Shown: positions 63 through 9,815 of the stretch, in pieces
Numbering within the stretch: position 1 is the first letter of the stretch
Layout: each line of letters begins with the position of its first letter
Source: a virus
Direction: 5' to 3' (one strand)
IMG/VR virus record: IMGVR_UViG_3300036846_000505
Coordinates: 1-20,276 of that record
DNA length: 20,276 bases
Position numbers and translations under genes: made by a program
The notes under the pieces: model-generated
Told to the model about the DNA's origin: nothing
Databases searched by the model: none
The model's input: the letters and a program-made list of their open reading frames with translations, nothing else

Positions 63-76
63 CGCCATCCGTGGCG
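63..76 (-). terminator. Weak hairpin after the HNH gene, possible terminator
   Basis: Directly after the HNH stop the - strand can form CGCCA-CGGA-TGGCG, a 5-bp stem with a 4-nt loop, followed by a pyrimidine-rich stretch that includes TTTTT about 25 bases later (39-43 region on the + strand as AAAAA). The stem is short and the T-run is far away, so this is only a weak candidate. The rest of positions 1-77 shows no gene. Confidence 0.25.
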
Positions 77-77
77 G

Positions 78-359
78 TTACATGCGCGTGTCATAGCGAG
101 CGAGCGTTTTGTTGTAGCCCCATCGGGCGGCGTTGGTGCGTTGGGCGGAGAGGTAGCCGTTGCATCGTTTGCATGCGGCTCTCATGTTGGACGGGACGTC
201 GTCTCCACCATCGGCGCGGGCAACGATGTGGTCGACTTCGGTTGCCCAATCGGTACAACGTGGGCCTTTGATTTGGCATTGGTAGCGGTCTCGTTGGAGT
301 ACCCAATGGGCTAGGGCTCGGTATGCGCCTAGCCATAGGCGGCGTTCGGTCGAGCTCAT
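78..359 (-). CDS. HNH endonuclease
   Basis: A 93-residue HNH-family nuclease. C28 and C35 precede the core D43-H44-I, N58 follows, then C63-x2-C66-N67. The two cysteine pairs form the usual structural zinc site, and the last position of the motif is N rather than H, a known HNN-type variant. I chose the ATG at 359 because it overlaps the stop of the preceding microprotein as ATGA; longer in-frame starts up to 419 would overlap that gene more and add a basic, featureless leader. In many actinophages a small HNH protein is encoded next to cos and the terminase and assists DNA packaging. The end-of-genome position here, with portal at the opposite window edge, fits that role, which is inferred. 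A free-standing homing-type HNH is the alternative. Confidence 0.88.
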   Translation of the reverse strand: MSSTERRLWLGAYRALAHWVLQRDRYQCQIKGPRCTDWATEVDHIVARADGGDDVPSNMRAACKRCNGYLSAQRTNAARWGYNKTLARYDTRM

Positions 360-433
360 GCGTAGACGATGAGCAGTACGACGGCCACGACTACCGCGCA
401 TACGAGCATGGCTCTCCAATAGTTATCGCTCAT
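356..433 (-). CDS. 25-residue single-span membrane microprotein (third of three)
   Basis: A short reading frame encoding a polar N-terminus (MSDNYWRA) followed by about 16 uninterrupted hydrophobic residues (core LVCAVVVAVVLLIV) running to the C-terminus. Its ATG overlaps the stop of the preceding microprotein (ATGA) and its own TGA overlaps the HNH start (ATGA), so it is held in a tightly coupled chain. The frame stays open upstream to 550, but the longer version is a basic, low-complexity sequence overlapping the neighbours, so the ATG at 433 is preferred. The function is unknown. Being a single helix with almost no soluble part, it could be a membrane-perturbing or exclusion peptide. It is too short for most gene callers. 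Confidence 0.6.
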   Translation of the reverse strand: MSDNYWRAMLVCAVVVAVVLLIVYA

Positions 434-504
434 CGGCGTGCCAGCCATGTACCGAGCAGGAACAAGGTGCCACCTATGAGCAGTCCCCATACGAGCGGGC
501 TCAA
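430..504 (-). CDS. 24-residue single-span membrane microprotein (second of three)
   Basis: A 24-codon frame starting at TTG (504-502). That TTG overlaps the preceding stop as TTGA, and the frame ends in a TGA that overlaps the next ATG as ATGA. The product is a hydrophobic helix (core GLLIGGTLFLLG, flanked by two tryptophans) ending in A-R-R, a positive-inside signature that suggests the C-terminus is cytoplasmic. No Shine-Dalgarno sequence is visible, so translation would depend on reinitiation from the upstream gene. The TTG start and small size lower confidence. The support is that hydrophobicity, the terminal arginines and the stop/start overlaps at both ends all agree with the neighbouring frames. 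Function unknown. Confidence 0.5.
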   Translation of the reverse strand: MSPLVWGLLIGGTLFLLGTWLARR

Positions 505-587
505 CGGCGGAGCAGGAAGTCGATTGCTCGACAGACGGCGAGGACTGCAACTCCGATGGCGGTTATCCATGCGGCAACGTCAGGCAT
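501..587 (-). CDS. 28-residue single-span membrane microprotein (first of three)
   Basis: A 28-codon frame starting at ATG 587, which overlaps the end of the coiled-coil gene by 8 nt (ATGCCTGA, the same junction seen between portal and protease). The protein has a short acidic start (MPD), a hydrophobic stretch of about 18 residues (core ITAIGVAVLAVC) and a C-terminal D-F-L-L-R-R tail, predicting one membrane span with a positively charged inner end. It is followed by two similar frames in tandem. The three proteins share design rather than obvious sequence, so I cannot tell duplication from convergence. A role in lysis timing, superinfection exclusion or membrane sensing is possible but not shown. 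Confidence 0.58.
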   Translation of the reverse strand: MPDVAAWITAIGVAVLAVCRAIDFLLRR

Positions 588-1215
588 CTTTCGCTCCGAT
601 GTATTCCAATACTTCCTCGGCGTCCAAGCCTACGTTTACGGCGTCGAGCAAGTCGTTGTAGACGTCGGCGGCGTCTCGGTCTTTGGCCCATTGCAATGTT
701 GCTCGGGCTCCGATGACGCGTTGGAAGCGGCGGAGTCCGTCGTCGGAGAGTTGCCGTCGAGCGTTGACGTCGGCCTTTGGTGCGTACGGACGTACTAGAG
801 CGTTGCCGAGGTCTCGGCCCAAGAGGTAGGACAGGACGGCGGGATAGCGGCGGAAGAGGAGCTCGGCCCGGTCGGCGTCTCCCATCCCGAGCCCTCGGAC
901 GAGGCGCGCAACGTCGGGACCGAGTTTCTCTCGCCATTCTTGGCAGGCGGCCCGTTGGCGGGCTCGATGCTCGTCGGCTTGGGCTTTCCACGCGTGGCAA
1001 GCCTCTAACGCGTCGGCAAAGAGCTCGTCCTCGTCGACTTGGCGGTCGAGCTCGTCGAGGCGGGCGGTTTTGGCTCGGAGGACGGCGTTGCGGGCTCGCT
1101 CCAATTTGAGCTCGGCTTTGGCCTCGGCAATCTCGTCGGTTAGCGAGCGGCAGAGCTCTCGGGCGGCTTGCTCGCGACGGTTGGCGGCTTGGACGGCCTC
1201 TTTGCCTCTAGTCAT
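580..1215 (-). CDS. Coiled-coil protein of unknown function
   Basis: A 211-residue protein. Residues about 5-65 are rich in A, E, R and K with heptad-like leucines, consistent with a coiled coil, and a second charged helical stretch follows to about residue 100. The C-terminal half is mixed alpha with several aromatic residues. I chose the ATG at 1215 because it overlaps the stop of the upstream winged-helix gene by 8 nt (ATGACTAG); the same frame is open to 1617 but that part is a low-complexity shadow of the upstream gene. I do not recognise the family. Its place between a DNA-binding protein and the microprotein cassette at the end of the early operon gives no firm clue. The gene is well supported; the function is not. 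Confidence 0.75.
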   Translation of the reverse strand: MTRGKEAVQAANRREQAARELCRSLTDEIAEAKAELKLERARNAVLRAKTARLDELDRQVDEDELFADALEACHAWKAQADEHRARQRAACQEWREKLGPDVARLVRGLGMGDADRAELLFRRYPAVLSYLLGRDLGNALVRPYAPKADVNARRQLSDDGLRRFQRVIGARATLQWAKDRDAADVYNDLLDAVNVGLDAEEVLEYIGAKDA

Positions 1216-9621: not shown

Positions 9622-9669
9622 AGGTATCTAGGGTGCTTACCTCCGGGAGGAAACGCACCTTAGATACCT
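9622..9669. other. attP: Candidate attP: imperfect 48-bp dyad upstream of the serine integrase
   Basis: The arms AGGTATCTAGGGTGC (9622-9636) and GCACCTTAGATACCT (9655-9669) are inverted repeats with one mismatch in 15. The 18-nt centre contains CCTCC-G-GGAGG (9640-9650). The total span of 48 bp equals the usual size of a large-serine-integrase attP, and the position right next to int is typical. No T-run follows on either side, so it is not a standard terminator. An operator for int is the alternative. The surrounding gap 9602-9701 holds no gene. Confidence 0.6.
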
Positions 9670-9701: not shown

Positions 9702-9815
9702 TCACTCCGAACTTTTCGAGGAGCGGCGGCCTGCGAGGTAGCCGAGATAGGCCGCTAGCGCGGCAAGAGCTCCGTGGGACAGCGCCAAGCCTGCCACGGT
9801 AAGAGCGAGCCGCAT
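9702..9815 (-). CDS. 37-residue membrane protein, holin candidate
   Basis: A 37-codon frame starting nine bases after the endolysin stop. It encodes MRLAL, a hydrophobic alanine/leucine-rich span of about 24 residues (AGLALSHGALAALAAYLGYLAG) and a basic-serine tail (RRSSKSSE). This is one predicted membrane span with a cytoplasmic C-terminus. The position directly after the amidase makes it a candidate holin or holin-like lysis protein, but it is shorter than most known holins and has only one span. No strong Shine-Dalgarno is seen; coupling to the amidase is likely. Confidence 0.6.
   Translation of the reverse strand: MRLALTVAGLALSHGALAALAAYLGYLAGRRSSKSSE

Follow-up and report, generated by a model that had tools for sequence, protein, structure and literature searches.

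Three stop/start-coupled membrane microprotein genes ahead of an HNH gene in a small temperate phage, and a mobile microprotein family that includes the first of them

The virus record IMGVR_UViG_3300036846_000505 of IMG/VR, which in its full length of 20,276 bases is the window analyzed here, contains on its minus strand three very short open reading frames (ORF1 to ORF3; 28, 24 and 25 codons) that bridge the gene for a 211-residue protein and an HNH endonuclease gene. A sequence-only reading had previously taken them for a cassette of coupled membrane peptides, each with one span and encoded by a frame below most annotation cut-offs, and the coordinates, overlaps and lengths given there all proved exact. 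In order of transcription, with the upstream gene last, the features are:

591-597, minus strand: Shine-Dalgarno-like GGAG region before ORF1, read directly, with GGAG six bases 5' of the ATG
501-587, minus strand: ORF1, 28-residue single-span microprotein MPDVAAWITAIGVAVLAVCRAIDFLLRR; a divergent member of the EVG microprotein family, with a homologue in locus L284
430-504, minus strand: ORF2, predicted 24-residue single-span microprotein MSPLVWGLLIGGTLFLLGTWLARR, with a TTG start on the ORF1 stop (TTGA); from sequence and chain statistics
356-433, minus strand: ORF3, predicted 25-residue single-span microprotein MSDNYWRAMLVCAVVVAVVLLIVYA, with its ATG on the ORF2 stop (ATGA); from sequence and chain statistics
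78-359, minus strand: HNH endonuclease, 93 residues, with its ATG on the ORF3 stop (ATGA); Pfam HNH 1.1e-8, phrog_333 6.7e-20
580-1215, minus strand: 211-residue protein, function not assigned, the frame directly upstream of ORF1, whose start its stop overlaps (ATGCCTGA); no relatives found in IMG/VR

The highest 17-residue hydropathy means are 2.18 for ORF1, 1.82 for ORF2 and 3.16 for ORF3, and both ORF1 and ORF2 end in two arginines (RR). No Shine-Dalgarno motif precedes ORF2, ORF3 or HNH, which would therefore rely on the stop/start overlaps. Among 100,000 order-2 Markov gaps matched in length to the real gap, a linking chain of any kind arose in 1,130 and a chain with a membrane span in every frame in none. 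Moreover, four short hydrophobic frames lie on the window strand, ORF1 to ORF3 being three of them, where chance would give 0.08 on a strand of 20 kb. Chance is excluded for the full cassette, and its description as coupled single-span membrane peptides is supported. Longer in-frame forms of ORF2 and ORF3 overlap ORF1, and the extra stretches have poorer coding scores. Within the 220-nucleotide gap the predicted RNA fold is not unusual (z 0.81) and no promoter was found. ORF3 also has an internal in-frame ATG (409-411, minus strand) with GGAG four bases upstream, from which a 17-residue peptide would be made; a second start at this place, reminiscent of dual-start holins, is speculation.

ORF1 is under selection at the protein level. 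Its homologue in L284, a different phage and the sole IMG/VR relative obtained when the three peptides were joined into one query, is MPDVAAWITAIGVAIIAAHHLLGILGRK (61% identical) and starts in a TGATG overlap. All 14 N-terminal residues are identical between the two, and the nine nucleotide differences in these first 14 codons are third-position changes, each of them synonymous and none non-synonymous; the synonymous-site bias for which the sequence-only reading had proposed a check is thus present in ORF1. Random placement of nine differences preserved the protein in 0 of 200,000 trials. Over the full length the proportions of synonymous (pS) and non-synonymous (pN) differences are 0.83 and 0.30.

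A search based on the capsid protein returned 80 related loci, 25 with an HNH gene, in which small membrane proteins of like kinds were seen both ahead of HNH and after the endolysin. A profile built from four such proteins matched 39 loci, and with iteration inside the fetched loci the count rose above 60, spread over more than 50 contigs. Members of this EVG family have 25-33 residues and one span, with the pattern M-T-x-x-Q-[AG]-W ... E-V-G-[VI]-[IV]-A-L, typically the start MTETQ[AG]W and often a basic end. pN was below pS in all 169 pairs compared (mean 0.28 vs 0.68), and a Shine-Dalgarno 4-mer precedes 35% of the starts vs 8% of random ones. Pfam holds no family for these proteins, and their PHROG matches are weak and without function (best E 0.0009; ORF1 to phrog_12997, E 0.0024). 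The unknown PHROG families 12997, 26357, 13419 and 20523 are similar insofar that they consist of short hydrophobic phage proteins weakly matching single members, but none matches more than 3 of 27 EVG members and none has a function, and the matches are too weak to place the family. Very many unannotated small transmembrane proteins have been reported in catalogues of small proteins (e.g. GMSC, PMC11364881); neither a wandering position, nor tandem coupling, nor an endolysin link of the EVG family is described in the literature found. As judged from Pfam, PHROGs and that literature, the family is undescribed.

ORF1 is a divergent member of this family, as argued by a shuffle test, a branch of the family without the glutamate, a bridging sequence and the gene order in L284. 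In size and span ORF1 fits the family (28 residues, hydropathy 2.18), and ORF2 and ORF3, with 24 and 25 residues, lie at or below its lower limit. The N-terminal motif M-x-[DE]-x-[QA]-[AG]-W is found in ORF1 and L284 (both MPDVAAW) and in L287 (MTDVQAW), and is absent from ORF2 and ORF3. ORF1 has G-V-A where the span of typical members has Glu-Val-Gly, a motif that is common rather than universal, since the family profile matches the E-less members in L029 (3e-13), L042 (2e-9) and L287 (6e-11), which also do without it. The profile hidden Markov model on its own does not join ORF1 to the family (1.7 bits, not significant). However, in global alignment to the family only 3 of 10,000 pattern-preserving shuffles scored better than ORF1, which also exceeded all 524 unrelated membrane micro-ORFs. 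The L287 protein (bacterial genome G634, contig C89), MTDVQAWILVVAVVVIALVHLWGAPRGPRG, has no glutamate and forms a bridge between ORF1 (3 of 10,000 shuffles against ORF1) and the EVG family. Finally, gene order agrees: L284 has its ORF1 homologue between the TerL/zinc-ribbon pair and the portal gene, just where the related L279-L282 have a typical member. Bacterial genomes were also searched for the family: 396 sampled from the phylum of a Streptomyces genome gave no member at E 1e-4, and 299 sampled from the class of a Thermoleophilia genome gave two matches. Of these, L287 alone looks real, and its origin in that sample hints at which hosts one branch of the family infects.

In the capsid-related phages the EVG gene occurs at most once per contig, and its place differs. 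It precedes the endolysin gene in L055 and L069 and follows it in L029, L045, L052 and L072. In L022 and L042 it stands ahead of HNH, as ORF1 does in the window. Over all loci it is found near an amidase endolysin gene, on either side, in about 19 contigs (Pfam Amidase_2 in the six checked). L029 (12843-14118) and L042 (17160-18181) share the same pair of endolysin and two-span holin-like protein, and the sister microprotein genes stand after this pair in L029 and upstream of HNH in L042 (2644-2739), which is a direct case of a gene changing its place. A second family, of two-span proteins with 53-65 residues, shows the same two settings: it follows the endolysin in many relatives and is directly before HNH in five contigs (G030-G034), where it aligns over its full length with the post-endolysin set, and the two-span proteins before HNH in L062, L063, L066 and L067 are homologous to the post-endolysin ones. 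Membrane micro-ORFs ending at HNH were present in 4 of 32 distinct loci vs 0 of 475 other junctions (p 1.3e-5), a pool of junctions that omits the gp10-like and endolysin junctions at which the EVG family itself sits. A look for small frames ahead of HNH in relatives had been proposed, and relatives of ORF1 do lie there in L022 and L042; most relatives, however, have no membrane microprotein at this place (4 of 32 do), and with the ORF1 family at many other junctions an obligate link to HNH is not supported.

Tandem arrangements similar to that of the window are found beside endolysins. Runs of two to three overlapping small membrane genes occur there in L247, L249, L250, L072 and L029, and the endolysin-side EVG gene frequently forms a row with genes for a two-span protein and for another single-span one, as in L247, L249, L250 and L072. 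Elsewhere, L258 has membrane micro-ORFs of 24 and 25 residues with a four-base overlap. Two further peptides were seen in passing. In L034, L037 and L039 (near 13, 18.7 and 14.8 kb) a conserved, apparently also unannotated, single-span peptide of 33 residues (...EVLVGALVITVVILALVVAAFAIF) is coupled directly to a two-span protein, and in L247 (4286-4393) and L249 (4288-4395) a conserved one-span peptide of 35 residues (WDGCLFWLTLVGLVALGAVVAGIIVLFFLRLS) is the third gene of the endolysin-side cassette.

By analogy with such cassettes, ORF1 to ORF3 may be coupled holin-like membrane peptides with a part in lysis control, a reading that we favor at somewhat less than even confidence. We infer that ribosomes would load at the Shine-Dalgarno sequence before ORF1 and reach ORF2, ORF3 and HNH in turn through the stop/start overlaps, that the peptides would insert in the cytoplasmic membrane and gather there, ORF1 and ORF2 probably with N-out/C-in topology because of their C-terminal RR, and that, together with the holin-like protein encoded next to the endolysin, they would set the time or completeness of lysis. 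Each related phage would have one EVG gene, usually adjacent to the endolysin gene or at another site within the head and tail region. With one span each, by hydropathy only, the three peptides fall in the one-to-four-span range of holins. Among the functions previously suggested for the cassette, lysis timing is supported indirectly, because the ORF1 family and the second small membrane family of the HNH slot otherwise adjoin endolysins; nothing was found to favor superinfection exclusion or membrane sensing.

Known lysis proteins of actinophages provide a partial model. In known actinophage cassettes, those of mycobacteriophages, paired one-span and two-span proteins jointly set the time of lysis (PMC13056207), and the one-span lysis proteins of Gordonia phages, with 79-145 residues, are oriented N-out/C-in (PMC9671378). 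Such one-span proteins, including LysF1b of Girr and NormanBulbieJr (PMC13056207), resemble the peptides described here in their single span, probable N-out/C-in orientation and basic C-terminus, and in that relatives within the EVG family adjoin the endolysin, partnered with a two-span protein. They differ in size, since the peptides compared here have 24-31 residues and no large cytoplasmic domain, as well as in the position of the window cassette away from the endolysin and the lack of similarity to a curated holin family. The two-span LysF1a-type or class II holins find a likeness in the two-span proteins of 53-65 residues that relatives carry after the endolysin and, in five contigs, before HNH, whereas the window peptides have one span each and its HNH slot lacks a two-span gene.

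The lysis reading should be interpreted with some caution, since several observations weigh against it. Our main doubts concern the many places of the family outside lysis genes, which would also fit a role in assembly, and the 9 kb between ORF1 to ORF3 and the amidase gene, where a holin gene would be expected next to the endolysin. No match to Pfam or PHROG holin families was found, and the window peptides (24-28 residues) are far smaller than the Gordonia proteins (PMC9671378). Moreover, the endolysin has a holin-like neighbor of its own: directly after the amidase gene lies a 37-residue frame (9702-9815, minus strand), MRLALTVAGLALSHGALAALAAYLGYLAGRRSSKSSE, whose span resembles the second span of the post-endolysin holin-like proteins in L029, L042 and L080 (p 0.001), and which is probably the holin-like gene of the phage's lysis cassette with the first span apparently missing. 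With this gene adjoining the amidase, we rejected ORF1 to ORF3 as the main holin of the phage as unsupported. Neither ORF2 nor ORF3 has firm relatives among the sequences found or a match to the EVG family, and codon usage, which clearly supports ORF1, supports ORF3 weakly and ORF2 not at all. As regards position, 15 contigs have the EVG gene flanked by tail-tube and gp10-like genes and five (L279-L282 and L284) have it flanked by TerL and portal; in others it is close to protease and capsid genes, and about 16 contigs could not be placed in these counts.

The positions among structural genes would suit a membrane-anchored accessory of assembly or packaging, one that docks procapsids, portal, tail-tube components or the terminase complex, and the window copy, just before HNH, would likewise stand ahead of the terminase pair of relatives. 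However, the position of the family gene is not fixed to any structural gene, and where it lies beside the amidase it is often in a run of holin-like genes; we consider this explanation unlikely. Exclusion factors are known to include small membrane proteins, and protection of the cell or lysogen, by superinfection exclusion or another membrane block against competing phages, would suit a phage with a serine integrase and a repressor-like helix-turn-helix gene. The slot before HNH also varies among relatives in the manner of accessory genes. Exclusion genes are usually patchy and situated in accessory regions, whereas the EVG family is conserved, single-copy and within the structural and lysis run in most relatives. 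ORF1 to ORF3 gave no sequence match to a superinfection exclusion protein, no PADLOC search having been made, and we regard this possibility as somewhat less probable still.

About equally improbable, in our view, is that only ORF1 is a real gene and that ORF2 and ORF3 are read-through frames which hold ribosomes and set the level of HNH, their products doing little. The missing homologues of both frames, the poor codon usage of ORF2 and an HNH gene that begins on the ORF3 stop with no Shine-Dalgarno sequence of its own would all follow. Against this stand the membrane spans in both frames, which exceed chance (0 of 100,000), and the similar tandem membrane micro-ORFs in L258, L029, L247 and L249. 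ORF2 and ORF3 are likely but unproven genes, as suggested by linkage, hydropathy and the analogy with other cassettes. Queries with HNH, the 211-residue protein, the RepA-like ATPase, the exonuclease and the three joined peptides returned no close relative covering ORF2 and ORF3; L004 shares only replication genes with the window, a nucleotide search of cultured phages gave one weak match of 97 bp, and the window capsid had no match in bacterial genomes. Single microproteins gave no tblastn match in cultured phages even at E 10, a result for which length and masking are the probable cause and which does not show absence. We also rejected ORF2 as a fragment of a glycine-rich holin span (p 0.25). 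Finally, toxin-like peptides that depolarize the host membrane early in infection, unrelated to lysis, have a parallel in the toxic 58-residue one-span protein outside the lysis cassette of mycobacteriophage Amelie (PMC11797047), but are very improbable given that most family members are in late-gene positions.

The phage itself, a soil phage, is small and temperate, and its relatives measure 20-23 kb. On the minus strand the late part runs from a partial portal gene through protease, capsid, connectors, tape measure and tail genes to the amidase endolysin; then follow serine integrase, the repressor-like gene, exonuclease, RecT, a RusA-like gene and a RepA-like ATPase gene, and at the end two unknown genes, the three microproteins and HNH. 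Since terminase genes are missing from the window, it is a linear fragment; in relatives a terminase-like gene pair, called by position and size, lies 3' of HNH. The distance from HNH to the next late gene in relatives is often 100-200 bases, and ORF1 to ORF3 with HNH may thus end the preceding transcript. Directly 3' of HNH (63-76, minus strand) a small GC stem is followed by a T-rich stretch, which could be a weak terminator of this transcript. The host is probably an actinobacterium, as suggested by capsid and endolysin sequences about 30% identical to their counterparts in mycobacterial and Gordonia phages. Directly upstream of the serine integrase gene (9601-7943), a 15-bp inverted repeat with one mismatch (AGGTATCTAAGGTGC ... 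GCACCCTAGATACCT; 9622-9669) is a candidate attP or integrase-control site.

We tentatively propose, with less confidence than the lysis reading itself, that a new family of 25-33 residues, always as a single gene, has shifted among five or more junctions within one phage lineage with its sequence kept, that it works as a minimal lysis regulator, and that it has been expanded here to a coupled three-peptide cassette at the HNH/terminase junction. If true, a conserved piece of the lysis programme, or of another late function, would have been overlooked in many soil phages, its gene being missed because it is shorter than annotation cut-offs. The peptides would rank with the smallest membrane regulators known from phages, their clear consensus making them easy to find and test, and their shifting place within one phage lineage would constitute a natural experiment on the gene order needed for lysis control.
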